From positions 1 through 20,072 of IMG/VR virus record IMGVR_UViG_3300044701_000587: a stretch of DNA of 20,072 nucleotides; one strand, written 5' to 3'. A program made the position numbers and the translations under genes. Position 1 is the first letter of the stretch, and every line of letters begins with the position of its first letter. Under the pieces are notes generated by a model. The model made no database searches, had not been told where the DNA came from, and saw nothing but the letters and a program-made list of their open reading frames with translations. This DNA is from a virus. Shown piece by piece: positions 3,253 through 19,876 of this stretch.

Positions 3253-4118
3253 CGATGACCCCCGCCCCAGAGCTGCAGGACATGCTGGCCCCCGGCCAGG
3301 AAGACATGATCGACGGCTTCCTTGAGGAGCTGGAGGAAGAGCAAGCCCAGCTGAACACCCCTGCCCCGGCGGCGGAGGAGTCGCTGCTGGCCGGCAAGTT
3401 CAAGAGCACCGAGGAACTGGAGCGCGCCTACCTGGAGGCGCAGAAGCTGATCAGCAGCCGCGGCCAACAACCGCCTGAGCCGGCGGCCGACGAGCCTGCG
3501 TTCACACCCGACCAGTACACGCCCGAGCTGGGCAAGCAGCTCTACGGCGACACCGTGGCAACGGCGATCGAGGCGGCGCAGATCAACCCGCTGGAGATGG
3601 CCGAGAAGGTCTACGCCGGCCAGGACGTCAGCAGCTACGTCGATGCGCTGGTGAACCAGGGCGGCCTGCCGCGGGAGGTGGTGGAGACCTACCTGCAGGG
3701 CGTGAAGCCGGCAGCAGCCCCGGCCCAGCAGCCGAGCAGTGGCCTCACTGATGCCGACGTGGCTGAGCTCAAGGGCTTGGTGGGCGGCGATGAGCAGTTC
3801 CAGCAGCTGAGCCAGTGGGCGATGTCCAACCTGGAGCCCCAAGAACTGGCCGACTACAACGCCGCGATCGACAGCGGCAACAAGGCGGCGGCACGCTTTG
3901 CGCTCAAGCAGCTGCAGGTGCGGGCCAGCAGTGGTGGCGGCGAGCCGAAGTTGATCAGCGGCGGCGGGGCGGTCAAGACCGACGTGTTCGAGAGCGATCA
4001 GCAGGCGGTCGATGCCCGCAGCAAGCGCGACGCCAATGGCCGCTTCCTGTACGAGACCGATCCCAAATACCGGCAGTGGTACGACAAGACCCTTTCCAGG
4101 TCGAACGTGTTTCTGTAA
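3249..4118 (+). CDS. Capsid assembly scaffolding protein, T7 gp9-like
   Basis: This 289-residue acidic protein (T7 gp9 is about 307) lies between portal and major capsid genes. It guides procapsid assembly from inside and then leaves. The N-terminal half is rich in Glu and Asp, with E-E-L-E-E-E near residue 23. The C-terminal end reads R-F-L-Y-E-T-D-P-K-Y-R-Q-W-Y (about 263-276) and closes S-R-S-N-V-F-L. T7 gp9 has a comparable basic end with M-S-D-P-R-Y-R and terminates D-S-N-F, the part thought to touch the capsid protein. ATG 3249 overlaps the portal TGA by the ATGA arrangement and has only a weak AGG upstream, so coupled translation is likely. The low sequence conservation typical of scaffolds makes position an important part of the evidence. 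Confidence 0.88.
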   Translation: MTMTPAPELQDMLAPGQEDMIDGFLEELEEEQAQLNTPAPAAEESLLAGKFKSTEELERAYLEAQKLISSRGQQPPEPAADEPAFTPDQYTPELGKQLYGDTVATAIEAAQINPLEMAEKVYAGQDVSSYVDALVNQGGLPREVVETYLQGVKPAAAPAQQPSSGLTDADVAELKGLVGGDEQFQQLSQWAMSNLEPQELADYNAAIDSGNKAAARFALKQLQVRASSGGGEPKLISGGGAVKTDVFESDQQAVDARSKRDANGRFLYETDPKYRQWYDKTLSRSNVFL

Positions 4119-4227: not shown

Positions 4228-5232
4228 ATGGCCAACGTTTCTCTCGACCGTATCGGTCAAATCAAAGGCACAGGTGCAGTTGATGCCCTGTTCCTCAAAC
4301 TCGGCATTGCCGAGCTGCTGTCTGCCTTCGACCGCTCCTGCGTGTTCAAGGGCAAAGTCAAAGAGCGCAACATCAAGGGCGGCAAGTCTGCAGCGTTCCC
4401 GGTTTCGGGTCGCGCTGAGGCGGCCTACCACGTGCCCGGCACACCGATCCTCGGGGCAACCAACAGCCCTGGCGACCGCAACGAGCAGCTCATCAACCTC
4501 GATGGTCTGATGATCGCCGACCAGGTGATCTATGACCTGGAAGAGCTGATGAACTACTACGACGTCCGCCAAGACGTCACCCATCAGCTGGGCCAAGCCC
4601 TTGCTCGTGAGTGGGACAAGCGCGCTGCGCGCGTGCTGTACGCCGCGGCCAAGACCGTCACCGAGCCCCTGGCCAAAGCCGGCAACGCCGGCCGCATTGG
4701 TCAGTTCCAAACCCTCTCGGCGGGCTATGCCGCTGCTTCGGCAACGGCCAAAGGCGATGAGCTGGCTTCCCGGATCGGCGCCATCAAGGTGGCCATGAAG
4801 AAGAAGGACGTCCCCACGGAAGACCTGGTCTGCGTGGTCGGTCCTGACGAGTACGACTTCCTGCTCGACTCCACCCGTGCGATCAACACCGACTTCAACG
4901 GTGAAGGATCCAACGGTTCATTCGCCAGCGGCCGTGTGCTGCGGGTGAAGGGGATCCCGATCATCGAGTCCAACCACGTCACCCAGGCGGCTTACACCAA
5001 CGGCACCTACGACAAAAACACTGCCTATCAGCAGGATCTGTCGAAGTGCCGGGGCATCATTTTCCACAAAGATGCCATCGGCGTGCTGACCCTGCGCAGC
5101 CCCAGCCTGCAAGTCACCCCTCAGGGCGGCGACTTCAACATCATGTACCAGGCCAGCCTGATGGTCGCCCGCATGGCGATCGGCATGGGCGTCCTGCGTG
5201 CTGAGTGCGCAGGCGTGATCGAAGCCCCGTAG
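4228..5232 (+). CDS. Major capsid protein, T7 gp10A-like (HK97 fold)
   Basis: This 334-residue protein (T7 gp10A is 344) forms the icosahedral shell. Diagnostic stretches are: A-L-F-L-K-L (residues 20-25); G-G-K-S-A-A-F-P-V-S-G-R-A-E-A-A-Y (51-67), matching T7 S-G-K-S-A-Q-F-P-V-L-G-R-T-Q-A-A-Y; I-Y-D-L-E-E-L-M-N-Y-Y-D-V-R (about 100-113), matching T7 I-Y-D-I-E-D-A-M-N-H-Y-D-V-R; and a C-terminal A-R-M-A-I-G-M-G-V-L-R-A-E (about 314-326), matching T7 A-K-Y-A-M-G-H-G-G-L-R-P-E. ATG 4228 is the first start after an in-frame TGA at 4216-4218. It has its own leader with a promoter-like element and a terminator downstream, so it can be made in large amounts as a short transcript. No sign of a T7-type 10B frameshift extension was seen. 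Confidence 0.96.
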   Translation: MANVSLDRIGQIKGTGAVDALFLKLGIAELLSAFDRSCVFKGKVKERNIKGGKSAAFPVSGRAEAAYHVPGTPILGATNSPGDRNEQLINLDGLMIADQVIYDLEELMNYYDVRQDVTHQLGQALAREWDKRAARVLYAAAKTVTEPLAKAGNAGRIGQFQTLSAGYAAASATAKGDELASRIGAIKVAMKKKDVPTEDLVCVVGPDEYDFLLDSTRAINTDFNGEGSNGSFASGRVLRVKGIPIIESNHVTQAAYTNGTYDKNTAYQQDLSKCRGIIFHKDAIGVLTLRSPSLQVTPQGGDFNIMYQASLMVARMAIGMGVLRAECAGVIEAP

Positions 5233-5338: not shown

Positions 5339-5998
5339 ATGGGCCTCGCCAACCAGGGAGCCACGCCAGGGCGCACGACGCTGCTGGAGGCGGTGAACAT
5401 CTGCCTGCAGAACATCGGCGAGCAGCCGGTCAACAGCCTGGAGAACCAGCAGATCGTCGAAGCGACGATGGCTGAGCGCACGATCCTGGAGTTCCACAAG
5501 GAAGGACAGACCCGGGGCTGGAGCTGGAACAGCGAGCAGGCCTACGAGTTCGTGAAGGACTCAAACACCAACCAGATCACGGTGCCGGCCAACGTGGTGT
5601 CGTTCGCGCCGGATGCCTACCAGTGGGCAGGCCGCTTTCAGCTGCGCGGCCAGCGGGTCTACGACAAGGAGAAGCGCACCTACAGCCTGGAGGCCGCCAT
5701 CCCCAGCTTGGAGGCGGATGTGGTGTGGCTGCTGCCCTGGGACGAGTGCCCGGAAGCGTTCAACCGCTGGATCACGATCCGCTCGGCGCGGGTGTTCAGC
5801 GATCGGGTGCTGAGCTCCGACGCGATCTTCAAGTACACGGCGCTCGATGAGCAGATGGCGCTGGTGGAGCTGCAGCGGGTGGAGATCGAGCAGGCCCAGC
5901 CCAACAGCCTGACCGGCGGCCCGGGCCTCAGGCCGTTCCCCACCTACTCGCCAGGACTGGGGCTGCTGGGCCGGAACGGGGGCTACCTGCGTGGCTAA
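5339..5998 (+). CDS. Tail tubular protein A (adaptor/gatekeeper), T7 gp11-like
   Basis: This 219-residue protein (T7 gp11 is 196) forms the dodecameric ring between portal and nozzle. Signatures are L-L-E-A-V-N-I-C-L-Q-N-I-G-E-Q-P-V (about 15-31), where T7 has A-V-N-D-I-L-A-S-I-G-E-P-P-V; R-G-W-S-W-N (about 59-64), where T7 has R-G-W-T-F-N; and W-D-E-C-P-E-A-F-N-R-W-I (134-145), where T7 has Y-D-E-M-P-E-C-F-R-Y-W-I. A Pro/Gly-rich tail of about 30 residues is extra relative to T7. ATG 5339 has no close Shine-Dalgarno site. GAGG at 5313-5316 is separated from it by the stem-loop of copy B, which would bring the two together if folded. The stop overlaps the next gene's GTG start. Confidence 0.93.
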   Translation: MGLANQGATPGRTTLLEAVNICLQNIGEQPVNSLENQQIVEATMAERTILEFHKEGQTRGWSWNSEQAYEFVKDSNTNQITVPANVVSFAPDAYQWAGRFQLRGQRVYDKEKRTYSLEAAIPSLEADVVWLLPWDECPEAFNRWITIRSARVFSDRVLSSDAIFKYTALDEQMALVELQRVEIEQAQPNSLTGGPGLRPFPTYSPGLGLLGRNGGYLRG

Positions 5999-8651
5999 TC
6001 TCGTCAGCTACACGATCCCGAGCCTGATCCAGGGGGTCAGCCAGCAGCCGGACGCGCAGCGCGAGCCGAGCCAGGGCGAGGTCCAGATCAATGGGATGAG
6101 CTCCCTGGCCGAGGGCCTGCGCAAGCGGGAGGGCTCCCAGGTGATTGCCAAGGTGAGCAACACCAGCTTCGGGGACGTCTACTTCCACCAGATCCTGCGG
6201 GACTCGGCTGAGAAGTACCTGGTGGTGGTCGGCAAGACCGCGATCAAGGTGTTCGACCTGGAGGGCAACGAGAAGACCGTCAGCGCTCCCTTTGGCTACG
6301 GCTACCTGTCGTCGGTGGTGAGTGCCAAGAGCGACATCCGGGCGGCGACGATCGCCGACTACACCTTCATCAGCAACACCCGGGCGGTGCCGGCGATGGA
6401 TGCGGCACTGGCCCCGGTGGTGGCGCGGCCATCCACCCACGAGGCGCTGGTGTGGGTGAAGGCGGCCAACTATGGCCAGACCTACAAGGTCAACCTCAAC
6501 GGCACCCAGGCGACGATCACGACAGCGGTGGCTGCCGTGGTGGTCAGCGGCACCACCACGGTCGAGAACCGGATCAGCTCTGAGGACATCGCCGCTTCAA
6601 TCCGCTCGGCGCTGACGGGTGTTTCGGGGGTGACGATCGACCGGGTTGGCAGCGTGCTGCATTTCAAGTCGGCCAACCCGATCACGATTGCCGCCAGCGA
6701 CGCCCGGGCCAATGCCGACATCACGGCGATCACCAGCTCTGTGCAGGCGTTCACCGAGCTGCCGACCGTGGCGCCGCAGGGCTACCAGATCCAGATCATT
6801 GGCGATCCGGGCAACAAGTTCGACGGCTACTACGTGCAGTTCAAGCCGCGCTCAGGCGCCGGCACCTTCGGCGAGGGGGCGTGGGAGGAGACCGTCAGCC
6901 CGGGGGTGGAATACAAGCTCAACGCCACCACGATGCCCCACCTGCTGGTGCGGCTGGCGAACGGCACCTTCTACTTCGGCCCGGCCAACGGCACCACCCA
7001 GAGCGGCACGAAGATTCCCAGCTGGGGAGAGCGCAGCGCGGGCGATTACGACACGGCGCCCGACCCGAGCTTCATTGGCTTCCCGATCCAGGACATCTTC
7101 GTCTACAAGAACCGGCTGGGGCTGCTGGCCGACGAGAACATCATCCTCAGCCGGACGCGGGACTTCTTCGAGTTCTTCCCGGAGACGGTCACCACGGTGC
7201 TCGACACCGACCCGATCGACCTGACGGCGAGCAACAACCGGGTGTCGATCCTGCGCTACGCCATCCCGTACCAGGACGAGCTGATCATCTTCAGCGACCA
7301 GATCCAGTTCCGCTTCAACACCACCGAGACGGTGCTGACGCCTGCAACGGCTGTGATCACGGTGCTCACCCAGTACGAGATCGACCCGGACTGCCGGCCG
7401 ATCCCGGTGGCGGGCACGATCATCTTCTGCCAGACCAACGGGCAGTGGTCGCAGTTCCGGGAGTTCAGCGTCCGCGGTGCGGGAACTGCGCTGGTGGCCG
7501 ATACCTCGGACCTGACGGGCTACGTCAGCAGCTACGTGCCCGACGACGTGTTCAAGCTGGCGGGCAACGACACCGGTAACTCCTGGTTCGCCATCTCAAG
7601 CAAGGCTGGCTTCCGGGATCGGGTCTACGTCTACAAATACTTCTACCGGAACACCGGCGCCGGGGCCGAGCGGGCCCAGAGCAGCTGGAGCCACTGGCAG
7701 CTGAGCGGCGCCGACAAGATCCTGCAGATCCTGTGCGTGCAGGAGGTGATGTTCCTCCTGGTGGAGTACGGCTCGGAGGTGTGGCTGGAGAAGATGCCGG
7801 TGGCCGATCGGCTGAGCGGTGCTGCGGAGGGCCCCTACCCGCTGCTGCTGGACCGGCGAGTTGCCAGCTATCAGGACACACCAGGGACCAGCACGATCGG
7901 CACCCCTGGCCAGCAGGGGTTTGGCATTGGCGTGTGCCCCGGCAATTTGCTGCCGGAGGACTGGGCCCCCACCTCTGCAGCGACCTACCAATCCGGCACG
8001 GCGGTCTACGGCAACTACGTCCATCTGCCCAGCGATGCCGGCGGACTGCTGGCCCCGTGGAGCACCTATGACGCCACCACGAAGCAGACCACCTGGACCC
8101 TCCCCTACGAGATCAAGGCACCGACCCAGGCGTGGTCGGGCTTTGGGCCAGCGACCAATGGGGGCGTGCTGCTGGGCCAGGCGAGCAGCGGCCGGCAGGT
8201 CGTGGCCAACGGCAACTGGTCCGCGGTGCCGGTGTTCTTTGGCGAGATGTTCGATTTCGTCTACCGGTTCACGCGCTTCAAGCTCTACAAGGAGGTCGGC
8301 GGCGGCAAGGTCGCAGCCAATGCAACACGGACCCAGATTCGCCACGCCAAGCTCCGCTATCACGAGAGCACGTACTTCGAAGTGCGGGTGATGGCCGAGC
8401 GCCGGGACATGGCGCTCTACAAGTTCGATGGGACCGTGTTGGGCAGCCGCAACTCAGCCCTGGGCACGGCGATGCCCAATGGCTACGACCCAGAGGACAA
8501 ACGGTATTTCGAGGGGGTCTTCCAGATCCCGATCGCCAGCAAGGGCGAGAACTGCATCGTCGAGATCCACAACGACACGATCCACCCGTGCAAGTTCAGC
8601 ACTTGCGAATGGGTGGGTCTGCTCAGCAGCCAAGCGAGGAGCCTGCAATGA
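5991..8651 (+). CDS. Tail tubular protein B (nozzle), T7 gp12-like
   Basis: This 886-residue protein, larger than T7 gp12 (794), is expected to form the hexameric nozzle that carries the fibres. The N-terminus has I-P-S-L-I-Q-G-V-S-Q-Q-P-D (9-21), as in T7 I-K-N-L-K-G-G-I-S-Q-Q-P-D. Further on are L-E-G-N-E-K-T-V, A-D-Y-T-F-I-S-N and N-R-L-G-L-L-A-D-E-N-I-I-L-S-R-T (374-389), then D-P-I-D-L and Q-S-S-W-S-H-W-Q-L, all with direct T7 counterparts. Extra length seems to lie partly around residues 620-700, a Gly/Pro/Thr-rich stretch with no T7 equivalent that I can align. The start is GTG 5991, overlapping the previous TAA by 8 nt; it gives M-A-N-L-V-S-Y at the same distance from S-Q-Q-P as in T7. 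Confidence 0.94.
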   Translation: MANLVSYTIPSLIQGVSQQPDAQREPSQGEVQINGMSSLAEGLRKREGSQVIAKVSNTSFGDVYFHQILRDSAEKYLVVVGKTAIKVFDLEGNEKTVSAPFGYGYLSSVVSAKSDIRAATIADYTFISNTRAVPAMDAALAPVVARPSTHEALVWVKAANYGQTYKVNLNGTQATITTAVAAVVVSGTTTVENRISSEDIAASIRSALTGVSGVTIDRVGSVLHFKSANPITIAASDARANADITAITSSVQAFTELPTVAPQGYQIQIIGDPGNKFDGYYVQFKPRSGAGTFGEGAWEETVSPGVEYKLNATTMPHLLVRLANGTFYFGPANGTTQSGTKIPSWGERSAGDYDTAPDPSFIGFPIQDIFVYKNRLGLLADENIILSRTRDFFEFFPETVTTVLDTDPIDLTASNNRVSILRYAIPYQDELIIFSDQIQFRFNTTETVLTPATAVITVLTQYEIDPDCRPIPVAGTIIFCQTNGQWSQFREFSVRGAGTALVADTSDLTGYVSSYVPDDVFKLAGNDTGNSWFAISSKAGFRDRVYVYKYFYRNTGAGAERAQSSWSHWQLSGADKILQILCVQEVMFLLVEYGSEVWLEKMPVADRLSGAAEGPYPLLLDRRVASYQDTPGTSTIGTPGQQGFGIGVCPGNLLPEDWAPTSAATYQSGTAVYGNYVHLPSDAGGLLAPWSTYDATTKQTTWTLPYEIKAPTQAWSGFGPATNGGVLLGQASSGRQVVANGNWSAVPVFFGEMFDFVYRFTRFKLYKEVGGGKVAANATRTQIRHAKLRYHESTYFEVRVMAERRDMALYKFDGTVLGSRNSALGTAMPNGYDPEDKRYFEGVFQIPIASKGENCIVEIHNDTIHPCKFSTCEWVGLLSSQARSLQ

Positions 8652-9097
8652 ACTGGTCAACCCCGGACGAATGGCGCGTGGCCCACATCGCCACCCACCT
8701 GCGGCCTCAGGATGCTGCAGAGGTGTTTTACAGCGACGCCAAGCGCCCAGAAGAGGCGGTCTACGACAGCTGGAAAAACAGCCCAGATTGTCGTTGCATA
8801 GATGGAGACGACGGCACCCCTGTGGGCATTTGCGGCGTGGCTCCTGGAGGGGTGATCTGGTTGCTGGGCACCGAGGAGCTGCTGGCGACCCCAAGCCACC
8901 GGCGGCAATTCATCAGAGGTGCAAAGCAATGGGTCGACGGTCTGCTGAATGAGGGCTCGGGGCCGCTGCACAACTGGGTGTTTGCCGCCAACCGGGATTC
9001 GGTCCGCTGGCTGAAGAAGCTGGGCTTCCAGTTCTGGCCAGCTGAGCCCTATGGCCCCTGCGGCCAGCTGTTCCGCTACTTCGAGAGGTCGGTCTGA
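8648..9097 (+). CDS. Internal virion assembly protein, T7 gp13-like (GNAT-like fold)
   Basis: This 149-residue protein (T7 gp13 is 138) sits between tail tube B and the gp14-like gene, as in T7. The C-terminal half has N-W-V-F-A-A-N-R-D-S-V-R-W-L-K-K-L-G-F (about 112-130). T7 gp13 has N-Y-V-W-V-G-N-T-S-H-I-R-F-L-K-T-I-G-A at the same place and also ends near Q-L-F. The middle P-V-G-I-C-G-V-A-P-G-G-V-I-W-L resembles the beta-bulge part of acetyltransferase-like folds, but I see no clear acetyl-CoA-binding R/Q-x-x-G-x-G/A loop, so catalysis is not claimed. ATG 8648 overlaps the previous TGA and has GAGGAG 6 nt upstream. In T7, gp13 is needed for proper assembly of the internal core. A longer open frame from 8132 is a shadow within tail tube B. 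Confidence 0.85.
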   Translation: MNWSTPDEWRVAHIATHLRPQDAAEVFYSDAKRPEEAVYDSWKNSPDCRCIDGDDGTPVGICGVAPGGVIWLLGTEELLATPSHRRQFIRGAKQWVDGLLNEGSGPLHNWVFAANRDSVRWLKKLGFQFWPAEPYGPCGQLFRYFERSV

Positions 9098-9924
9098 TGG
9101 ATCCCTTAACAGGAAGCCTTGTCCTTGGCGGCGCGCAAGCCGTCATGGGTGTCTTCCAAGGCATCGCCGGCTACCAGGCGCAGAAGCAGGACTATCGCAA
9201 CCAGCGAGCGTTCCAGAACGCCAATTCCCAGTACGCCAGCTGGCAGGCGGGCTTCAACAAGCGCGTCACCGACGCCAATGCGCAATACAACTACTGGCAG
9301 GAGACGGTCAATTACAACCAGAACCTCGCCTACACCCGCAGCCTCAAGAACTACGAGCTGCTCAAGGAGATCCGCCAGGCGGAGGTGGTGGGCCAGACCC
9401 GGGCCGCCGCCGGAGCCAGCTATGTGCTGAGCAGCGAGGCCCTCAACCAGCAGATGTCAGAGGCGTCGCTGCAGGACGCCGTGGCCTATCAGCAGTACCA
9501 AGTGGCCGCGCTCAAGGCGCGCAGCCGGGTGCTCGCCAGCGACCAGGAGGGCGGCTCAATTGACCGGCTGGTCAACGACTACGCCCGCCAGGTGGGCGAC
9601 TACCAGACGATCCAGGCGATCAACGAGGGGCTGCGCACGCGGCAGTACAAGCGCGAGCAGGCCGGGCAGGTGGCGCAGTACCTGAGCCAATACAACAGCC
9701 AGACCTTCTACGAGTCGCAGCCCTACATGGAGCCGATCGCGCCGTTTGCGCCGCTGCCTTCGCTGCTGGCAGCCCCAGCGCCAACGATGACCGGCTCCGG
9801 CCCAAGCGCCGGCGCTGCTGCCCTGAACATTGGCACCGGGATCCTGGGCGGCGTTCAGACAGGTCTGAGCGCCTACGGGCAGCTCAGCCAGTACGCATCC
9901 TCCGGCAAGAGGTCTAGCCCATGA
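9097..9924 (+). CDS. Internal virion (core/ejection) protein, T7 gp14-like
   Basis: This 275-residue protein is longer than T7 gp14 (196). T7 gp14 is ejected first and is thought to form the outer-membrane pore. The N-terminus has a Gly/Ala-rich hydrophobic stretch, G-S-L-V-L-G-G-A-Q-A-V-M-G-V-F-Q-G-I-A-G (6-25), suited to membrane insertion. A long Gln/Ala helix region follows, then E-G-G-S-I-D-R-L-V-N-D-Y-A-R-Q-V (about 151-166) and D-Y-Q. T7 has the comparable E-G-S-S-M-D-R. The extra C-terminal part (about 205-275) is Pro/Ala/Gly-rich. It includes A-L-N-I-G, which may only by chance resemble the G-L-N-I tags of the small proteins. AGAGG precedes the overlapping start by 8 nt. Confidence 0.88.
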   Translation: MDPLTGSLVLGGAQAVMGVFQGIAGYQAQKQDYRNQRAFQNANSQYASWQAGFNKRVTDANAQYNYWQETVNYNQNLAYTRSLKNYELLKEIRQAEVVGQTRAAAGASYVLSSEALNQQMSEASLQDAVAYQQYQVAALKARSRVLASDQEGGSIDRLVNDYARQVGDYQTIQAINEGLRTRQYKREQAGQVAQYLSQYNSQTFYESQPYMEPIAPFAPLPSLLAAPAPTMTGSGPSAGAAALNIGTGILGGVQTGLSAYGQLSQYASSGKRSSP

Positions 9925-12665
9925 CCCGCGAACTTCCGCTGAATCAGATCCGCCCCGCAGCCCAGCCGGTCGACACCTTCATCCGCCCGGCGCAACAGAA
10001 CACGGCAGCGCCAGCCGGTCCGCAGATGATGCCCAACCCCTCGGGGATTCGGATCATCGAGCAGGGCAATGGCGGCAGCGTGCAGGGCTACAACCAGTTC
10101 GCCCAGCTGGCTGAAGCCCTGGCGCCGTTTTCCCGAGCGCTGATAGACGTGGCCGGCGCTGGGGCGCGGATGTACGCCAGCGCCGAATACGAGAAGGGCC
10201 AAAACGAGGCGATGCGGGCGCAGGTGCTGGCCAACCAGCAGATGCAGCAGTCGATGAGCGAATACGCCAGCGAAACCCGCAAGCTGGCGCAGATCGATCC
10301 GATCGGCGCCCTGATGATGGATCGGGTGAATCCGTACCGGGAGGCCGGGCGGATCAACGCCCTCTCGCGGGTGGCCGCTAAGGAGATCAGCAGCGCTGTT
10401 CTCGATGAATACAGCCGCACCCCTGGCGTTGAGGAGTGGCAGTTCGGCGACCCTCAGCTCAAGCAACTCCAGGCGCGGGCCGTTGCAAGAGTTGCCGAGA
10501 AGTACCGGCTGGACGAAGGCACGCCTGGTTTTATCGACTACGTGCTGCCAGAGGTCGGGCAAGCGACCGACAAGCTGATCGCCCAGCACCGCGAGGACCG
10601 CACCAAGTACCTCCAGAACACGGTGCCGCGGCTGGCCGCTGTGGAAGCGCTGGGCGAATACGAGAACGCCCGCAAGACGGGCATCGTCGAGTGGAACGAG
10701 TTTGACCCGGTGAGCGGTCGCCAGATCAGGCGCGCCGCCCAGTCCAGCGATCCGGTGGCGTTCGAGTACGGGATTCGGATGCGCTTCGCGCAGATCCTGG
10801 ATCGGATGGCCAGCGAGTCCGGGCTGCCCGGCATGGCCGGCAAGTTCAAGCAGCAGGTTGTTGAGCAGCTGGGCGGGATGGCCACGGCCGCCGGCAACAG
10901 CGATCTGTACCGGATCGTTGCTGGCACCGAGGTGGGGCCAATCGGCAAGGACGGCCGCCGGCCGCTGGCTGCGGAGATGTTTGGACTGGAGCTGCTGGAA
11001 GCTCGGCACAAGTTTGGCCAGATGGTCTGGCAGGAGCAGCAGCGCACCCAGCAGCAGGGTCTGCAGGCCTTCCAGTCCGAGCTGGCCACGATCACCTTCA
11101 ACATGCCGGATAGCCCCGAGCGGGGCGCGGCGATTCAGCAGCTGATCCAGAAGTACGAGGGCACCATCCCCCGCTTCGAGCTGATGAAGGCTGCCGAGGA
11201 GGCCAGCGGGGTGGGCGACAAGATCGCTGCCCGCAGCTACTCCACCGAGCCAATCGAGCAGTTCTTCCTGGATGCCAACGAGCGCGCCGGCTCGGCGTGG
11301 AATGTCACCAAGGCCGACGCCGAATACCGGCAGATCCGCGAGACGCTGCCGCCTCAGGAGCGCGGCAAATACGACCGCCAGTGGGCCTCGATCCGCGACA
11401 GCAAGGAGAAGGAGAAAAACGACGTGCCGGGCTATCTGGTGGACCCGTTGATCAGCGGCGCCATCAAGTCACGCCTCAAGGAGTTCTACCCAAGCGACAC
11501 GACGGAGGCTGCGCTGCGCGGCGCCAACATCACCGACATGCTCGCCTACGGCGACGCCAACGTGGCCCGCTCGGCCCAGTTGCAGCTGAGCGCCTACCGC
11601 AAGCACGTCTACGCCAGGCTGCAGGAGGCCAAGGCCAAGAAGGGCGGCGAGCTCGACGCGGCCGAGGTGACGTCCGTGACCCAGGCGGCGCTGGCGGAAT
11701 ACGGCAAGAACGACGCCAAGAACTTCAACTCGCTGTTCCCGGGCTCCCCTAAGAGCAACAGCCCTGGCGTGGGCCCGGTGAAGCCGCCGGCTGCCGGCAG
11801 CGAACCGGTCAAGCCGCCCCCGGGCCGCCAGGCCTACAACCAGCCGGTCTACTCCTCAGGGCAGCTCGACAACATCCCCAACCGGGCAGAGCGCCTCAAG
11901 GCTGGCGAGCCGGTGCTGAGCCTGCCCAGCGCGCAGGAGGAGGCGACGCGCATCCTCAACGGCCGGGCGCCCAGCGCAGCGCTGTCCCGGGCGGCCAGGG
12001 ACGCCGGGCTTACTCCGGGCAAGTTCCTGCTGCAGCAGCTCGATGGCTACCCCAGCTTCCAGCTGCCGGCTGACGCCCGGCGGGACCTGTTGCGCAGCAG
12101 CCGCGGCGCCCAGGGCATCACCGACGCGGCCCGCACCGCCAGCGGCGGCAAGCCACGGCCGGTGGAGATGGCGGCGATGTGGTTCTTCGATGCGCTAACC
12201 GGCGCCCGGCCTGCAGCGGCATCCACGCTGCCACCACTCCAGGGAGGCGGCCGGAATGGCGGAGCCCCTTTTATGGCTAGCACTGGAGGCGGCAAGGGAT
12301 CGCTGCCGGTTTCAAGCCTTGGGGGCCTTGCGCGCTCGGCCGGCTTCTCCACCGAGCAGGCCGTGATCATGGCCGCGATTGCCATGGCGGAATCCAGCGG
12401 CCGCGTCAGAGCCCACAACGACAACCGCAGCACGGGAGACGACTCCTATGGCCTGTGGCAGATCAACATGATCGACAGGCTTGGCCCAGAGCGACGTCGG
12501 CAGTTCGGGATTGGCAGCAACGACGCCCTGTTTGATCCGGCCACCAACGCAAGAGCGGCGCGGCAGGTCTACCTGTCGCAGGGATTCGGCGCCTGGAGCG
12601 TCTACAAGAACGGCGCCTATCGGCAGTACCTGCCGGAGGCCCGCCGGGCCATCACAGGGAGGTAA
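9921..12665 (+). CDS. Internal virion protein, gp15-like, with C-terminal transglycosylase domain
   Basis: This 914-residue protein follows the gp14-like gene with an ATGA overlap. Most of it (about 40-640) is helical and polar, with no strong motif, and fits T7 gp15 (747), part of the trans-periplasmic ejection tube. A Pro-rich linker lies near 610-645. Residues about 805-910 are a lysozyme-fold lytic transglycosylase: A-I-A-M-A-E-S-S-G-R with catalytic candidate Glu824, then S-Y-G-L-W-Q-I-N-M (842-850), then G-F-G-A-W-S-V-Y-K-N-G-A-Y. It would open the peptidoglycan during DNA entry. In T7 this activity is at the N-terminus of gp16, so its place here, at the C-terminus of the preceding gene product, is unusual. 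The gp15 assignment rests on order and composition; the enzyme domain is clear. Confidence 0.85.
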   Translation: MTRELPLNQIRPAAQPVDTFIRPAQQNTAAPAGPQMMPNPSGIRIIEQGNGGSVQGYNQFAQLAEALAPFSRALIDVAGAGARMYASAEYEKGQNEAMRAQVLANQQMQQSMSEYASETRKLAQIDPIGALMMDRVNPYREAGRINALSRVAAKEISSAVLDEYSRTPGVEEWQFGDPQLKQLQARAVARVAEKYRLDEGTPGFIDYVLPEVGQATDKLIAQHREDRTKYLQNTVPRLAAVEALGEYENARKTGIVEWNEFDPVSGRQIRRAAQSSDPVAFEYGIRMRFAQILDRMASESGLPGMAGKFKQQVVEQLGGMATAAGNSDLYRIVAGTEVGPIGKDGRRPLAAEMFGLELLEARHKFGQMVWQEQQRTQQQGLQAFQSELATITFNMPDSPERGAAIQQLIQKYEGTIPRFELMKAAEEASGVGDKIAARSYSTEPIEQFFLDANERAGSAWNVTKADAEYRQIRETLPPQERGKYDRQWASIRDSKEKEKNDVPGYLVDPLISGAIKSRLKEFYPSDTTEAALRGANITDMLAYGDANVARSAQLQLSAYRKHVYARLQEAKAKKGGELDAAEVTSVTQAALAEYGKNDAKNFNSLFPGSPKSNSPGVGPVKPPAAGSEPVKPPPGRQAYNQPVYSSGQLDNIPNRAERLKAGEPVLSLPSAQEEATRILNGRAPSAALSRAARDAGLTPGKFLLQQLDGYPSFQLPADARRDLLRSSRGAQGITDAARTASGGKPRPVEMAAMWFFDALTGARPAAASTLPPLQGGGRNGGAPFMASTGGGKGSLPVSSLGGLARSAGFSTEQAVIMAAIAMAESSGRVRAHNDNRSTGDDSYGLWQINMIDRLGPERRRQFGIGSNDALFDPATNARAARQVYLSQGFGAWSVYKNGAYRQYLPEARRAITGR

Positions 12666-12671
12666 CAGGTC

Positions 12672-15600
12672 ATGCCCCAGGAAATGAAGAAGGTCAACGG
12701 CCGCTGGGTCGTGACCGGCAACCCACAAAGCAGCGACCTGGTGCCGTTCGTCAAGCCGAAGGCCGCAGCTCCCGCTGCCAAGCCCAAGCCCAAGGCAGCG
12801 GCCAAGCCCAAGCCGCGGCCGTGGTGGGACAAGCTGCGCAACGACGCCCTTTACGAGGTCAAGCAGCTGCTGGCTCCACCGCTGCAGCGCAACCCCCTGA
12901 GGGAAGCGCAGCGCGCGCTGACCAGCCCCCTGGCCCGAGCGGTGCCGCAGCAACTGGGCCTGGCGGCTGTGGGCGCGGTGGACAACACCAACCGCATGGC
13001 CTACTCGCTGTATCAGCGCCATGTGCAGAAGAAGCCCAAGGCCGACCCGAGCGCGGGCCGCACCGGCGAGCTGCTCGACAGCTATGCAGATACTGCATAC
13101 AAGCTGCTGGGAGCGACGCCGCCGTCGCAGATGACGCCGGCTGAACGGGAGCTTGATGAGACGCGGCGCTCCTTGGCGCTGAATGTCGGCCTGGCCGGGA
13201 TTCCGGGCGCTGGCCTGGGGGCTGTCGGCGCCACCACCGCCTTGGGCACGGCAGTGCGTGGCGGTGCCGCCTTTGCGGTCAACGAGCTGCTCAGCAACTA
13301 CCTGGACAACAACACCGGCGGCAACATCGTCAATCTGATCAACGGCCTGACATTCGATCCCACAGATTTCAAGGGTGTCCCGTTTGTTCGCGGATTGCGC
13401 GAAGGGGAGAAGGGACCAGGACTGCCGGGTGCCGTCGACGTGGGCAACGACGACATGGTGGACGCGGCGAACAAGTCGCTGGTGCCCAACACGGTCGCGG
13501 GCCTGGGGTTTGGCGCGGCCATCGGCGCCGGCGCGGCAGGGTTCCGCAACATCCAGCGCCGCGTTCGAGCCGGCAGGGCCGTTGAGGAGGTGCAGCGCGC
13601 CCGGGCGACGCAGGAAGACGCCGGCCTGATCGAGAAGGCGGAGGACGGCAGCTACCGCTTCACGGAGCAGGCGCAGCAGCCCGCGCAGCCAGCTCCAGCT
13701 GCAGCTGCCCCGGCCCAGCAGGCAGCGCCAGCGGCCTCTCCGATGGACGACTTCAAGGCGGCCAATGCCGCCATGGAGGAGCAGCTGGGTATCAAGGCGC
13801 CCGAGGCCGAGCCCAAGCCGATCCCGACGATCGAGGACTCCACGGTCGACAACTTCGGCAAGACCACCGAGGGCCAGGGCACTGCTGCTGCGGCGATGCC
13901 AGAAGACGCCGATGTGGGTGGCAATGCCTGGGACGTCGAATACGACCCCTCCCTGCCCGAGAGCGATGCGCTCGGCCGGGTGGTGGATGACCTCGACGAC
14001 GAGGAGCTGATGGTGATCGCCCAGGGCCAGGGCCCGGTGGTGGAGCAGGTGAACCAGCTGATCGAGACCCGTCAGCCGCTGGAGGTGAATCCCAGCGCCC
14101 GGCTGGACATGACTGCTGCGCCGACCTCCAACCTGGCCCAGCCGGTGGTGCCGTTTGCCGATCAGTGGCAATCCCTGCCGGGTGACCAGCTCAGGAGCCT
14201 GGCCAGCCCGGACAACAGCCCTGAGCTGTTCGGCCGCATCCAAGGGATGACCGGCAAGGAGTTTGAGGAGTTCAGCAAGGCCGACGTGCTCGACGGGCTG
14301 TCGTCCTTCGAGAGCGACGGCATCACGGTGCTGCCCAACCGGCTGATGCCAGGCCAGCAGGTGATGCGCACGTCCGAGATCTTCACCGACCCAATCAACC
14401 TCCAGTACAAGGGCGACGTGGATGCCGGCGGGGTGCAGCGCCAGGGCTCGCTGGAGGGCGTTGAGAGCTGGAGCACCGACGCCGAGGGCGTGATCCAGGT
14501 GTGGACCAACCCGACGGACGGCAACGTCTACGTGGTCAACGGCCACAACCGACTGGCCGCGGCCAAGCGCCTGGGCATCCCCTCGCTGCGGGTGGAGGAG
14601 CTGCTGGCCGCCACGGCCGAGCAGGCCCGGGCCCAGGGCGCAATCGCCAACATCGCCAGCGGCGGCGGCACGGTCTTCGATGCTGCCAAGTTCCTGCGCG
14701 ATTCGGGTGTCACCGACCCCGCCCAGCTCAAGCAGATGGGCATCCCCCTCGACTCCGGGCTGGGCACCCAGGGCCTGGCGCTGAGCCGGCTGCCGGGCAA
14801 CCTCTTCCAGGACGCGGTGGATGGCCGGCTGTCGCTGGGCAAAGCGGTGGCGCTGGGCGGCAGTGGCCTCGACGAGGTGCAGATGCAGGCGGCGATGAAG
14901 GCCATGGCCGGCAGCGACATCACCGATGCCGCCTTCAATGAGGTGCTGCAGCAGGCCCGCAGCGCACCGGTGGTGCAGGGCGAGCAGGTGGACCTGTTCG
15001 GCAACACCGAGGTGCTGTCACTGATGCGGCAGAAGGCTGAGCTGGCCGCCAAGATCCGCGCCGACCTGATCGGCGACAAAAACCTGTTTGGCCGGGTGGG
15101 CCGCAACGCCAACAAGCTGCAGGAGGCCGGCAACCGGATCAGCGTCCAGGGCAGCACCCAGGTGGCGATGGATGCCCAGTCGGTGCTGGCCAATTTCGAT
15201 GCCACCAAATACGCCGAGGGCACGCCAATCAGCCAGCTGCTGAACGACGGCGCCATGCAGGTAGCGGACGGCGCCAAGCCAGCAGTGGTCGCCAAGCGAA
15301 TCAAAGCCATGCTGGCGAAGGCAGCGGAGGACACCCCGCCGATCGAGGTGCAGTCCGATCTGCTGAACGCCGCCGCCAAGACCGAAGCGCCGGCCACGAT
15401 TGAGTCTGAGGTGATGGGCGCCGCCGACCGCCAGGCCCTGAAGGCCCAGGTGCTGCAGAAGGCGATCGCCAACGGCGAGGTGCGACCACCCTCCACGCCG
15501 ATCCCCGAGCTGCCTGATGCGCCCCGGGTCAATGCGGCAGAGGCTGCGCTGGACATTGAGGCCAACGGCCTGGTGCCTGGCTCCAAGGGTGCCCAGGCGA

Positions 15601-16373
15601 TGGCCGACGAGGTGCGACTGGCGGTGGAGCACGGCAAGGCCGATGCGCTGAACCGCTGGGACCAGGAGGAGGGGCTGCGGGATGCCTTCGACTACGAGGC
15701 GCGCAGCTTCGACGAGAAGAAGGACCTGGGCGCGGTCGAGGGCTGGGATGACGTGACGCCTACCGAGGTGATGGGCGCCGCCAAGATCCCGAAGCTCTCC
15801 GAGAAGCTGGGCGAGCTGATGCGGACGATGGCCGAGTCCGACGCCCGGCTGTTCCGCGAGATCGAGCAGATGGGGCAGGAGACCCGCCGCACCGTCAACG
15901 AGCTCAGCGGGCTTGCTGAAGCACCCGTCCGCCCCGAGCCGCTGCGGCTCACCCAGGCAGTCGAGCAACCCGGCTTCACGCTGCCGCAGAGCCTGGGCCG
16001 CGCTGCACCTCGCTACGGCCGCGCCACGGTCCGCTTCCAGTCCGATCTGGACCGGGCCGCTTACATCCTGGCCAACGATGCCGTGAAGCCCTCCAAGTCG
16101 GCGCCCAAGTTCCGCGAGGCCGTTGAGGCCGCTGGGCTGGACGTCGCCGAGGTGGTGGCCCACGGCAAGCGGGTCAAGGCTGCAATCAAGCAGGCCGCTG
16201 GCGGCGGCGCGGCACCGCAGAAGGCGATGGACCTGGACATCCCGGCCCAACCCTTCGGCGCGGCACCCAAGCCACCAGCGAAGGCTGGCGACATCGCTGT
16301 GCGCCAGCAGATTGAGGCCAACAACCAGGCCATGGACAACATCCGCCGCAAGGCTCAACAGGAGGGCTGCTGA
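12672..16373 (+). CDS. Giant internal virion protein with ParB-like domain (polyvalent-type)
   Basis: This 1233-residue protein begins with a Lys/Pro/Ala-rich segment (about 29-50). It has two Gly/Ala-rich hydrophobic stretches (about 168-212 and 273-292) and an acidic, Ala/Gln-rich linker. A ParB-superfamily region follows: G-V-I-Q-V-W (about 606-611), then Y-V-V-N-G-H-N-R-L-A-A-A-K-R-L-G (620-635), the equivalent of the G-E-R-R box. After it comes S-R-L-P-G-N-L-F-Q-D-A-V-D-G-R-L-S-L-G-K (about 704-723), which recalls the ParB helix-turn-helix region (L-P-x-x-V-Q-x-x-L-x-x-G-x-L-S-x-G-H). The remaining 500 residues are helical and unassigned. AGGGAGG 9 nt before ATG supports the start. By position it is probably a core protein ejected with the DNA. 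A role in binding host or phage DNA is inference, and CTP or nuclease activity is not claimed. Confidence 0.78.
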   Translation: MPQEMKKVNGRWVVTGNPQSSDLVPFVKPKAAAPAAKPKPKAAAKPKPRPWWDKLRNDALYEVKQLLAPPLQRNPLREAQRALTSPLARAVPQQLGLAAVGAVDNTNRMAYSLYQRHVQKKPKADPSAGRTGELLDSYADTAYKLLGATPPSQMTPAERELDETRRSLALNVGLAGIPGAGLGAVGATTALGTAVRGGAAFAVNELLSNYLDNNTGGNIVNLINGLTFDPTDFKGVPFVRGLREGEKGPGLPGAVDVGNDDMVDAANKSLVPNTVAGLGFGAAIGAGAAGFRNIQRRVRAGRAVEEVQRARATQEDAGLIEKAEDGSYRFTEQAQQPAQPAPAAAAPAQQAAPAASPMDDFKAANAAMEEQLGIKAPEAEPKPIPTIEDSTVDNFGKTTEGQGTAAAAMPEDADVGGNAWDVEYDPSLPESDALGRVVDDLDDEELMVIAQGQGPVVEQVNQLIETRQPLEVNPSARLDMTAAPTSNLAQPVVPFADQWQSLPGDQLRSLASPDNSPELFGRIQGMTGKEFEEFSKADVLDGLSSFESDGITVLPNRLMPGQQVMRTSEIFTDPINLQYKGDVDAGGVQRQGSLEGVESWSTDAEGVIQVWTNPTDGNVYVVNGHNRLAAAKRLGIPSLRVEELLAATAEQARAQGAIANIASGGGTVFDAAKFLRDSGVTDPAQLKQMGIPLDSGLGTQGLALSRLPGNLFQDAVDGRLSLGKAVALGGSGLDEVQMQAAMKAMAGSDITDAAFNEVLQQARSAPVVQGEQVDLFGNTEVLSLMRQKAELAAKIRADLIGDKNLFGRVGRNANKLQEAGNRISVQGSTQVAMDAQSVLANFDATKYAEGTPISQLLNDGAMQVADGAKPAVVAKRIKAMLAKAAEDTPPIEVQSDLLNAAAKTEAPATIESEVMGAADRQALKAQVLQKAIANGEVRPPSTPIPELPDAPRVNAAEAALDIEANGLVPGSKGAQAMADEVRLAVEHGKADALNRWDQEEGLRDAFDYEARSFDEKKDLGAVEGWDDVTPTEVMGAAKIPKLSEKLGELMRTMAESDARLFREIEQMGQETRRTVNELSGLAEAPVRPEPLRLTQAVEQPGFTLPQSLGRAAPRYGRATVRFQSDLDRAAYILANDAVKPSKSAPKFREAVEAAGLDVAEVVAHGKRVKAAIKQAAGGGAAPQKAMDLDIPAQPFGAAPKPPAKAGDIAVRQQIEANNQAMDNIRRKAQQEGC

Positions 16374-16375
16374 TC

Positions 16376-19300
16376 ATGAGCAACAACTGCGACGACTCCT
16401 TCAAGCAGATCCAGGATCTGCAGGAGCAAAACCGGCAGCTGCAAGAGCAGCTCGCGGAGGCAGAGCGTCTGCGCAAGGCGGCTGGGGTCTACACCCGCGC
16501 CGACGTGGGCGAGACGTTCATCCTGCCGGGCCGCAACGGCACCCCCAAGGAGCTGGGCCAGGCGGAGATCCAGCGCGGCTACCAGCAGCTGGCGGGCCAG
16601 ATGAACGCCAAGGAGGTGGACGACATCGTGGCCCGGGGCCTCGACCAGCGGGCCAAGCCCTCGGGCGCTGACGGCCGCTTCACCAACTACGACCGGCTGC
16701 TGCGCGAGATCGACATCGAGCAGGTGGAGGATTACGCCCGGCTCAGCGAGGCCCTGGGGCTGACGCTGGAGCGGCAGGCGCCGGATGACTTCGCCTTTAT
16801 CACCGAGAGCTACGGCAAGGACCGCATCCTCGACATCGCCAGCCAGGCCTATGCCGACCTGGGGATCCCGGGCGATGTACTGCGGGCCCGGATGGCGACC
16901 CGTGCAGCGCGGTTTGGCGGCATCGTCGAAAACAAGGTGTGGCTGCGCTTCTGGGCGGATCGCTCCAAGAAGGGTTACCTCGACACGCTGGAGCAGATCA
17001 GCGAGTACATGCGCGAGCTGCCTGGAGCGCCAGTGCCGGCCCAGCTCAAGCAGGACGCCTTCAAGCAGTACAAGCTGGCGCTGGTGTTTGAGCGGCACAA
17101 CGCCTACGCCAAGCGGCGGGTGGCGCAAGCGCTGCGCAGCGAGCAAGACGAGATCAGCGGGCTCACCCTGCGACTGGACCTGGGCGATGACCAGGAAGGG
17201 CTGGCAGATGCCATCGGCCTGACCGTGCGCGACGTGGACAAGGACAGCCACATCGCTCGCGTCATTCAGGCGGTGGACGACGGCCCCAAGGGCCAGCTGC
17301 AGCTGGACGAGATCATCAACGCCACCAAGATCGACAGCCTCGACCCCAAGAGGAACCTCGACAAGGACTGGTTCAACACCCACATGCGGCTGGGCAATGG
17401 CCTGGTCAAAGACAGCCAGCTGACCAACCTGAACACCCAGCTCAAAGCCAACCTGGGCAGCAACATCGCCATGGCGGTCTTCGGGCCGGTGCAAGAGACG
17501 CTGGTCAACGGGATCAAGCTCACCCCGGTGGGCACCCGCATGAGCCGGGACGCCTTCATGGAGGCCTTCAAGGTCAGCTCTGAGGCGCTGCGCTACGCCG
17601 CCGACTACACCCGGGCGACGCTGCGGCAGGACGTGAGCCGGGCGTTCTGGGATGGCGGCGGGCTCTACGGCGGCAACGCCGACACCTACGGCCGGCACCT
17701 GCTCACCAACGAGCAGGAGATCGCCCAGATCGCCTCGATCCTCGATCAGCCCTACCAGTCCGGCGGCAACTGGGCCCAGACCCTGGCCAATCCGCAGAAC
17801 ATGGCGCTGTTCCGCAACAAGCTGCAGGTCTCAGCGCGGATCCTGGCGTTCTCCAAGCCGATGGACGACGCCGGCATGAACCGCCTGGAAGCCGCCTGGC
17901 GGGCCCTGGGCATTGGCTCGCCAGCAGGTGGCGCCAGCCGGATGCCGGTGCCCGACACCTTCGTGCCATGGAAGCCCGGCCTGCGGCTGATGGGCAGCGT
18001 GGACGAGGTGTTTGGCAAGTTCCAGTACCTGTTCAAGCTCAAGGCTGACCTGGAGGTGAAGGCCCGCATGGAGGGCGCCCAGCTGGGCCTGTTCGACGAG
18101 CAGACCCGCAACGCATGGGTGCAGGCCCGCCTCGATGAGGCGATCTACCAGGCCACGCCCAGCGAGGCGAACATCAAGGCCTTCCGCAAGCAGCACAACC
18201 TCAAGGGCAGCGACTTCACCGACGATGAGATCGGGGCGATCATCGCCGAGCGGAACATGGCGGGCGGCCCAACGATGGCGACCCCGGACAGCCGAGAGGC
18301 CTACGACTACTCAGCCTGGACGCGCTTCCAAAACAAGCCGCAGAGCTCCGAGATAGGCAGCTGGTTTGGCAAGCCGGTCGAGAAGCTCGATCAGGCCATG
18401 ATGAGCGCCCGCCAGAGCTGGTCGCTCGACACGGTGTTCCCCTACTGGCGCTCGCCCTTCAACGCGCTGTTGATGGACCACCGCATGGCGACATTCGCGG
18501 CAGTGGACACCGCCAAGATGATCTTCGGCAACCCAACGCCCGCCCAGGTCGCCAAGACCAAGGCGGCGTGGGTCGTCAGCGGCGCCACCTTGGGCCTGTT
18601 CGGGATGCTCGATGCCGGCGGCCACATTGACGGCGGGATGCACCCCGACCCGAGCAAGCGCAACAGGATCTTCAACACGCCCTACCTGGGCGGCATTCCG
18701 GTGCTGAACACCCTGTTCCTGTGGAAGGACCTCAAGGACGCCGCGATGGAGGCCGGCGAGAGCGGCTTCGACGGGCAGGAGGCGCTGACGGGCCTGATGC
18801 AGGTCATGACCAACCAGATCATGCGCTCCACCGGCCTGACCACGATCCACCAGCTGTTGGAGTCGCTCAACGGCGACCGCAACGCCTGGCAGTCATTGGT
18901 CCGCTACGGCGGCTTCCTGGGGGCCGGCCAGCTGCCGGGCATCGGCGTGGTGCGCAACATCGAGCGCCTGACCGGTACCGATGGCGCCAGCTTCTTCAAG
19001 GACGGCACCGCCACCCCAGGCGAGCGCTACTGGCTCGATCAAGACAACCCCCTGGCGGGCGTGGAGAAGGCGCTGCGCGACCTGGCCTACAACACCCTGC
19101 CTTCGATCGCAGCGGCCACCGGCGCGCCACGCAAGACGGTCGACCACCTGGGCAGCCCGATTGGGCAGCTGTACGGAATTGACTTCGCTAAGGGCTTCCC
19201 GGGCTTCCCCAGCATCTGGCCCAAGGGCCGGATCAACGATCTGGTCTACGGCGAGCTCGACACCCAGGACATGCTCAACCCACCCGAGCCGCTGCTCACC

Positions 19301-19876
19301 AAGCGGCTGGGCGGCATCGGCATGAGCGACCAGCTGCAGGCCGAATACACCGACATCCACGGCGCAATCAAAGGCGACAGCTTCCTGGGCCGCATGGCCC
19401 TGGCGGGCAAGACCGTGGCGGTGCGGTTCCCGATGCCAACCGAGGTGGTCACCAGTGGCGGGGTGCGAATCCGCAAGGACGGCGGCGCCAGCATCCCGGT
19501 GGGCCAGTTCCTGGAGAAGCACGTCAAGGGCAAAACCAAGAAGGAGGCCTTCTTTTCGCTGTTCCAGGACCCCATTTACCAAGCGATGGAGGACGACCCG
19601 CTGCAGTCCGCCGATCCGCGGATTCAGGACCAGCCCAAAGCGCTGCGCCGCACCCGGCCGGCCCAGCTGCTGATCCAGGCCGTGACCGACTACTACGACC
19701 TGCTCACCCAGGACGAGCTGGAGCGGCGGGCCGCGGCGGGCACCAGCGAGGCCGCCAAACAGTGGAGCGATGCCAAGACGCAGATGGCCGAGGAAATGTT
19801 CAAGCGCTCGCAAGAAAGCTTGGATCCAAATCGCCCGGACAACTGGGTGCAGCGGCTGGTTGACGCGGTGCGGTAG
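16376..19876 (+). CDS. Large internal virion protein, gp16-position
   Basis: This 1166-residue protein is the last gene before the tail fibre, as T7 gene 16 (1318 residues) is. It opens with a short coiled coil (about 8-35, Q-D-L-Q-E-Q-N-R-Q-L-Q-E-Q-L). The middle has S-N-I-A-M-A-V-F-G-P-V-Q-E-T-L-V-N-G (about 363-380). Further on, V-F-P-Y-W-R-S-P-F-N-A-L-L-M-D-H-R (about 688-704) is followed by a hydrophobic stretch, A-A-W-V-V-S-G-A-T-L-G-L-F-G-M-L (730-745), and a G-G-x-H-x-D-G-G turn. This P-F-x-x-x-P-x-N plus hydrophobic-helix layout is common at the ends of large podovirus internal proteins and polyvalent proteins. No lysozyme motif is visible at the N-terminus, unlike T7 gp16. AGGAGG lies 10 nt before ATG 16376. 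The expected role is the inner-membrane end of the DNA-entry channel. Confidence 0.82.
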   Translation: MSNNCDDSFKQIQDLQEQNRQLQEQLAEAERLRKAAGVYTRADVGETFILPGRNGTPKELGQAEIQRGYQQLAGQMNAKEVDDIVARGLDQRAKPSGADGRFTNYDRLLREIDIEQVEDYARLSEALGLTLERQAPDDFAFITESYGKDRILDIASQAYADLGIPGDVLRARMATRAARFGGIVENKVWLRFWADRSKKGYLDTLEQISEYMRELPGAPVPAQLKQDAFKQYKLALVFERHNAYAKRRVAQALRSEQDEISGLTLRLDLGDDQEGLADAIGLTVRDVDKDSHIARVIQAVDDGPKGQLQLDEIINATKIDSLDPKRNLDKDWFNTHMRLGNGLVKDSQLTNLNTQLKANLGSNIAMAVFGPVQETLVNGIKLTPVGTRMSRDAFMEAFKVSSEALRYAADYTRATLRQDVSRAFWDGGGLYGGNADTYGRHLLTNEQEIAQIASILDQPYQSGGNWAQTLANPQNMALFRNKLQVSARILAFSKPMDDAGMNRLEAAWRALGIGSPAGGASRMPVPDTFVPWKPGLRLMGSVDEVFGKFQYLFKLKADLEVKARMEGAQLGLFDEQTRNAWVQARLDEAIYQATPSEANIKAFRKQHNLKGSDFTDDEIGAIIAERNMAGGPTMATPDSREAYDYSAWTRFQNKPQSSEIGSWFGKPVEKLDQAMMSARQSWSLDTVFPYWRSPFNALLMDHRMATFAAVDTAKMIFGNPTPAQVAKTKAAWVVSGATLGLFGMLDAGGHIDGGMHPDPSKRNRIFNTPYLGGIPVLNTLFLWKDLKDAAMEAGESGFDGQEALTGLMQVMTNQIMRSTGLTTIHQLLESLNGDRNAWQSLVRYGGFLGAGQLPGIGVVRNIERLTGTDGASFFKDGTATPGERYWLDQDNPLAGVEKALRDLAYNTLPSIAAATGAPRKTVDHLGSPIGQLYGIDFAKGFPGFPSIWPKGRINDLVYGELDTQDMLNPPEPLLTKRLGGIGMSDQLQAEYTDIHGAIKGDSFLGRMALAGKTVAVRFPMPTEVVTSGGVRIRKDGGASIPVGQFLEKHVKGKTKKEAFFSLFQDPIYQAMEDDPLQSADPRIQDQPKALRRTRPAQLLIQAVTDYYDLLTQDELERRAAAGTSEAAKQWSDAKTQMAEEMFKRSQESLDPNRPDNWVQRLVDAVR

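Follow-up and report, generated by a model that had tools for sequence, protein, structure and literature searches.

A divergent ParB-type module in a probable ejection protein of a T7-like virus

What might a ParB-like domain do in a large protein encoded in the late gene block of a T7-like virus? The question is raised by the IMG/VR virus record IMGVR_UViG_3300044701_000587, a T7-like structural block that was analysed over its 20,072 bases (hereafter the window). A sequence-only reading of the open reading frame at 12672..16373 (+ strand), which encodes a protein of 1233 amino acids (P0001; defined by translation and by synteny with T7-like relatives), had pointed to a ParB box II-like motif at residues 620-635 (YVVNGHNRLAAAKRLG). 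Both the reading frame and the motif are present, and the fold, profile and control analyses agree with them. The observation was confirmed in this way, and the interpretation placed on it was partly supported. The explanation that we prefer, to which we give an even chance, is that P0001 is a fourth member of the T7-like ejection cassette and carries a divergent, optional ParB-type nucleotide switch as a payload that would serve as an early accessory factor.

The module of P0001 is complete, containing the three nucleotide-pocket boxes in the order found in ParB (Q578/K580, N623-G-H-N-R627 and N660) followed by a helix-turn-helix (HTH)-like helical domain. Even in its loose form, the box II pattern occurs only once in the ~40,000 codons of the six frames of the window. 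Two AlphaFold models were computed, one of the module (residues 509-866) and a separate full-length model (residues 34-1233). The module model had a predicted local distance difference test score (pLDDT) of 84.3, and all 16 of its Foldseek matches in the PDB at E <= 0.001 were ParB, Noc or KorB proteins (prob 1.00). ParB again ranked first with the full-length model, the best superposition being that on C. crescentus 6t1f, with a template modelling (TM) score of 0.65 on the target. Comparison of a predicted structure with ParB had been proposed in the sequence-only reading, and both models found their best PDB matches in ParB, Noc and KorB. A profile of 64 relatives, searched against 177,635 PDB sequences, also ranked C. 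crescentus ParB first (E = 0.008), with boxes II and III and the HTH region colinear. When aligned by hhalign with eight chromosomal ParBs, the module reached a Prob of 88.8 and a score of 50.6; the reversed control gave 0.2%, the best of 60 column shuffles scored 19.5, and two unrelated alignments gave 0.1%.

Direct family searches with P0001 gave a different result. PF02195 had no match at E <= 10 in the window and three relatives, neither NCBIfam nor a phmmer search of the PDB yielded a match, and the only Pfam match of P0001, a sub-threshold one to Fe-ADH (E = 0.009), was dismissed as noise. The failure of PF02195 and PF18763 to detect the module is what one would cite for a chance resemblance, that is, an unrelated domain that contains a GHNR string. 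However, two structure models, the profile searches and the controls converge on ParB, and L082, a relative in which the module stands twice in tandem, reaches partition PHROGs of the ParB-like kind without any intermediate (phrog_620, E = 1.6e-8); we find a chance resemblance hardly credible. On the models, the module has a ParB-type fold, consisting of an N domain and an HTH domain.

The predicted ParB-CTPase-like N domain spans 14340..14714 (+ strand, as are all features of P0001 given below; residues 557-681; profile comparison and AlphaFold/Foldseek), with box I at L-Q-Y-K 577-580, box II at N-G-H-N-R 623-627 and box III at N660. Relatives for alignment were collected from phage records, IMG/VR (449 matches, 80 retained) and bacterial/archaeal genome contigs (14); the 449 were obtained with an alignment as the query, and a single-sequence query, the patterns of which were too specific, confirmed none. 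Among 64 diverse module copies, Q578, K580, H625, N660 and D670 are invariant. The box II/P-motif segment (VVNGHNRLAAAKRLG; 14532..14576, residues 621-635) has GH in 64/64 and R627 in 61/64 of these copies, and this GxxR arginine is present in 90 of 94 copies when the larger set is considered. The box III segment (GAIANIASGGGTVFDAAK; 14637..14690, residues 656-673) contains the invariant N660 and D670 and lacks the E and R of ENxxR. In a motif alignment, R627 corresponds to KorB R117 and N660 to KorB N146, which are essential for cytidine triphosphate (CTP) binding and CTP hydrolysis, respectively (PMC11790492). When the GxxR arginine was changed to alanine, those ParB-fold binders that were tested no longer bound nucleoside triphosphate (NTP) (PMC12704722). 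The Glu of GERR is His in P0001 and Ala in KorB; because KorB still hydrolyses CTP, the His is no bar. Judged by these residues, binding of a nucleotide by the module is plausible.

The position of the gene points to the ejection cassette. The genes for the portal (1621-3252), scaffold (3249-4118), major capsid protein (4228-5232), gp11 (5339-5998) and gp12 (5991-8651) precede a homologue of gp13, a T7 synteny marker (8648..9097, +; PF11090, E = 2.8e-6, above the cut-off). Four proteins follow it: a gp14-like internal virion protein (9097..9924, +; a weak PF24072 match below the cut-off, E = 0.002), a gp15-position ejection protein with a C-terminal lysozyme-like SLT_3 domain (9921..12665, +; PF18896, E = 9.7e-19), P0001 in third place, and the gp16-position ejection protein P0006 of 1166 amino acids (16376..19876, +), which is assigned by synteny and whose place as the following gene is conserved among T7-like relatives. 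In most of these relatives' contigs that extend sufficiently, the P0001 gene has the same large neighbour on either side. Searches with profiles of the gp15- and gp16-position proteins made no connection to the solved T7 core proteins, and these two assignments therefore rest on synteny. P0001 lies where T7 ejection proteins lie, in the late operon after gp13 and gp14, and because it is encoded downstream of homologues of T7 gp10-11-12-13-14, it is a member of the ejection-protein cassette and a probable ejection protein. The sequence-only reading had likewise placed it among ejection proteins, and the gp13 and gp14 homologues upstream, the SLT protein before it and the 1166-residue protein after it bear this out. 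P0001 thus resembles T7 gp14, gp15 and gp16 in gene position, in its neighbours and as a large protein after gp13/gp14, whereas T7 has neither the ParB module nor a fourth gene, and the solved T7 core proteins gave no match by sequence. Parallels are also found in the cyanophages P-SCSP1 and MedDCM-OCT-S31-C1, in which large proteins at the same cassette position carry the orthologous module (32-42% identity) and, unlike P0001, have an HExxH metallopeptidase-like motif further downstream.

Is the module part of the entry machine itself, as it would be if it anchored or pulled in the genome, a possibility raised in the sequence-only reading? Judged by the capsid protein, Synechococcus phage S-SRP02 is the nearest phage that has been sequenced (major capsid protein identity, 86%), and from this relationship the host is likely to be a freshwater picocyanobacterium. 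The two phages are 81% identical in the portal, 86% in the capsid, 86% in gp11, 74% in gp12, 64% in gp14 and 47% in the scaffold. Identity is only 22-35% in the three large cassette proteins (window 9921-19876; S-SRP02 record L137 12904-22144), and the ejection cassette appears, from this comparison, to have been exchanged wholesale. The middle cassette protein of S-SRP02 (1016 amino acids) retains P0001 regions 449-555 and 895-1020 and has no module; BLASTP aligned P0001 449-543 with P0010 580-678 (E = 7e-8) and 500-555 with 635-690 (E = 2e-6). The module is likewise absent from the orthologue in MedDCM-OCT-S38-C3. These two orthologues indicate that the module is a payload that the T7-like ejection cassette can spare, an optional one rather than a part of the core ejection machinery. 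Its dispensability favours an accessory early function and disfavours a role in DNA translocation, so that anchoring or pulling in the genome becomes less likely. Where present, the module is the best-conserved part of P0001 (identity mostly 0.52-0.70, versus 0.2-0.46 in other blocks), and the nonsynonymous divergence (dN) is lowest there. The muralytic domain may have been swapped as well, because the window has SLT where the annotation of the gp15-position counterpart in S-SRP02 (L137 12904-15810) reads N-acetylmuramoyl-L-alanine amidase; a Pfam search assigned this counterpart to no family.

Under the preferred explanation, P0001 would be packed in the head alongside the gp14/15/16-like proteins and would leave it together with the DNA or before it. 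Once in the cytoplasm of the host, the module would bind a nucleotide through its GxxR pocket and, in this state, pair with a second copy, and the pair would close on, or dock to, DNA or a DNA-bound partner, for example the host sliding clamp through a QVDLF motif that follows the HTH-like region. As an accessory early factor outside the DNA-translocation machine, it would act in the first minutes of infection, either to shield the genome as it arrives or to divert the replication of the host. The fold, the pocket residues, the cassette position, the many architectures described below and the absence from a close sister phage come from computation; packaging, ejection, nucleotide binding, clamp closure and the target are inferred.

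The module was found in 21 of 50,697 sequenced phage records (E <= 1e-3), in line with the earlier claim that T7 has no such domain, which holds for nearly all sequenced phages. No module was detected in 72,556 plasmids searched with one distant member as the query. Elsewhere, fusions join the module to portals of the lambda and Mu types, to a MuF minor head protein and to a zeta-toxin-like kinase; the module also occurs in a tape-measure protein together with an ADP-ribosyltransferase and, in a protein of 3912 amino acids, with helicase, methylase, acetyltransferase and LPD38 domains. The suggested link to polyvalent proteins holds, as polyvalent proteins with the module also carry ART-PolyVal, LPD38, zeta toxin, methylase and helicase domains. 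In P0001, a single domain was recognised, the multi-domain polyvalent make-up being seen in its relatives. In a tree of modules, the grouping largely follows architecture. The HExxH motif is C-terminal and present in many T7-like relatives; in seven relatives without it, Pfam found no replacement domain. The tandem relative L082 (7853-11431) is a MuF protein that ends in QSSLFG, a possible C-terminal sliding-clamp motif, and L075 (3-12587) encodes a giant protein that joins a ParB module, an ADP-ribosyltransferase and a tape-measure domain. The PHROGs profile phrog_21, labelled 'portal protein', matches P0001 with E = 1.8e-37, and its positions ~1008-1330 of 1362 correspond to the module. Identification of P0001 as a portal was dismissed because only this C-terminal part matches; the label reaches non-portals because the profile includes the module from portal-fused members. 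Since portal, minor head and tape-measure proteins of other phages bear this domain too, it seems that phages have repeatedly equipped the components along the exit path of the DNA with a ParB-like switch.

Several observations weigh against the proposed switch. The Foldseek TM scores are moderate, 0.60-0.65 on ParB at best and less for closed-clamp ParB chains. The full ENxxR motif is found in none of the 94 copies, although the box III Asn is present in 64/64. In the recognition helix, P0001 has SGLGTQGLALSRLP where ParB has KSRSYIANLLRLLQLP, and the polar DNA-contacting residues of ParB are lost. The charge of the HTH domain is slightly negative. Given the missing ENxxR, this charge and the loss of those polar residues, one cannot take DNA binding or CTP hydrolysis for granted. 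The literature on the phage and its relatives yielded no virion proteomics for P0001 or relatives, and ejection cannot be the rule for all members because portal fusions keep the module in the particle unless they are cleaved. The charge gives no clean separation of the module family from ParBs, and the ParA-binding motif LG[KR]GL, present in 8/8 chromosomal ParBs used, is absent from P0001. Taken on sequence grounds, sequence-specific DNA binding by the module is unlikely. The HTH-like segment proposed earlier, LPGNLFQDAVDGRLSLGKA, is present at residues 707-725, but in the profile alignment it corresponds to 'LPDDVQEMLRDGALSIGHARA' of ParB, directly after the recognition helix, and is not the HTH itself; it lies in a ParB HTH-domain-like helical segment at 14715..14942 (residues 682-757; model and profile alignment).

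The losses of ENxxR and of the polar recognition residues could also mean that the ParB fold has become purely structural, its nucleotide and DNA functions gone, and that it now serves for oligomerisation or packing in a portal/ejectosome complex within the head. The fusions to portals and MuF fit this possibility, as does the fact that, in most of its contexts, the module sits on the exit path or at the vertex that holds the portal. However, a purely structural domain has no need of invariant Q578, K580, H625, N660 and D670 and a near-invariant GxxR, and the module is also present in giant effector proteins and dispensable in S-SRP02. We regard a purely structural role as unlikely, though it deserves to be kept in mind.

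Which kind of ParB does the module represent? It shares with the ParB, Noc and KorB CTPases the box order I-II-III, the HTH-like helical domain, the fold, the GxxR arginine and the box III Asn, and differs from them in having GHNR for GERR, in lacking ENxxR, the ParA-binding motif and a PF02195 match, and in being embedded in a virion-cassette protein. The sequence-only reading had also named DdrB-like ParB folds for comparison, and this lead failed: PF18763 (DdrB-like ParB) did not match the P0001 module, and hhalign against P1 DdrB and relatives gave a Prob of 0.7%. The two types have in common the ParB/Srx superfamily, occurrence in large phage proteins near structural genes and a downstream QxxLF-like motif, whereas P1 DdrB has VESGNGR as box II, another helical extension and no detectable domain profile similarity. 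Position 623, directly after the strand preceding GH.R, is N or D in 64/64 copies, and this residue may equal the Asp/Asn that has been reported where strand 2 ends in DdrB-like ParB. By profile comparison, the module is closer to the ParBs of the segregation/clamp type than to the DdrB-like type seen in polyvalent proteins. By analogy with a proposal for DdrB-like ParB (PMC5512222), the module might instead be an NTP-regulated DNase or nickase delivered at entry. Nuclease activity has been reported for ParB/Srx domains such as Osa and ParB-methylase (PMC5512222), and box II contains an invariant His. However, the module is not of the DdrB type, its closest fold is that of DNA-clamp ParB with an HTH domain, and a nuclease next to packaged DNA would require tight control; we consider this doubtful.

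The QVDLF sequence at 14985..14999 (residues 772-776) fits the bacterial sliding-clamp binding motif, Q-aliphatic-x-[LM]-[FL] (PMC11139829), and lies in a low-confidence loop that is predicted to be disordered (pLDDT < 50 at residues 768-780 of the module model; in the full-length model, at 769-773). Of 92 relatives, 66 have a strict motif here, whereas shuffling would give 14.6; in most cases the motif lies 146-159 residues after GHNR. Several relatives have QxxLPF for QxxLF, which is like the six-residue variant of the clamp motif, and the Gln is replaced by Glu or Thr in several members, including P0002. These members, and the portal fusions, argue against a clamp role common to the whole family. 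We report QVDLF as a lead, a candidate clamp-binding motif recognised from its sequence. In P1 DdrB (L101 24542-27529), a single QGDMF is found at residue 355, downstream of the ParB domain and in a place comparable to that of QVDLF. QLGLF in P0006 was given no weight as a second clamp motif because it varies to QLGLL inside a conserved region.

The main function of the module could even be to dock, by way of its QVDLF loop, on the beta sliding clamp of the host, with the ParB fold serving to position the motif. The excess over shuffling, the consistent spacing and the low-pLDDT loop argue for this, as do the QxxLF/QxxLPF alternation, which resembles penta- and hexameric clamp motifs, and the single QGDMF of P1 DdrB. 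On the other hand, several members, P0002 among them, have E or T instead of Q, portal fusions have the motif though portals remain outside the cell, T7-like phages have their own polymerase, and short motifs are readily over-interpreted. We think it improbable that clamp docking is the main function. Equally speculative is a broader scheme, in which an unrecognised family of virion-borne ParB switches on exit-path proteins would travel into the cell alongside the genome, close on whichever DNA arrives first and connect this DNA with the sliding clamp of the host via the QxxLF loop.

Other parts of P0001 can be located as follows. Two Gly/Ala-rich hydrophobic stretches, at 13179..13286 (residues 170-205; translation and Kyte-Doolittle scan) and 13479..13547 (residues 270-292; translation, with an aligned stretch in P0002), correspond to the Gly-rich stretches noted earlier and are just moderately hydrophobic (best 19-residue Kyte-Doolittle mean, 1.46). 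A helical mini-domain that precedes the module (14184..14300, ~residues 505-543; BLASTP) is kept in the module-less S-SRP02 orthologue. The module ends in a long helical tail in the AlphaFold model (15000..15269, residues 777-866) and is followed by the C-terminal region in common with the module-less orthologue (15354..15731, residues 895-1020; BLASTP E = 2e-16). A small alpha/beta domain near the C terminus (16008..16250, residues 1113-1193; pLDDT ~90 in the full-length model) had no database match; its RYGRATV...DLDRAAYI segment is shared with P0002, and P0003 has one that resembles it.

Polyvalent proteins with DdrB-like ParB have already been described (PMC5512222). The authors of the P-SCSP1 genomes tentatively picked out internal virion proteins by size and position, having found no annotation (PMC9860041), and a search of the P-SCSP1u cryo-electron microscopy (cryo-EM) paper for internal core proteins found no treatment of them. 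A survey of the ParB-CTPase fold from 2025 searched with PF02195, applying the cut-off of this profile, and says nothing of portals or virions (PMC12704722); because PF02195 fails to detect the module in the records tested, this survey would have missed the family. The P0001 module family is distinct from the P1 DdrB-like ParB. The isolated phage P-SCSP1u has an orthologue and a cryo-EM structure, which makes the idea directly testable; in P-SCSP1g, the orthologue is PSCSP1g_00025, with 2563 amino acids. ParB-fold switches are known from chromosome and plasmid segregation, and if the explanation preferred here is true, a nucleotide-controlled DNA-handling domain would also act at genome delivery, a step with little-known early protein effectors.

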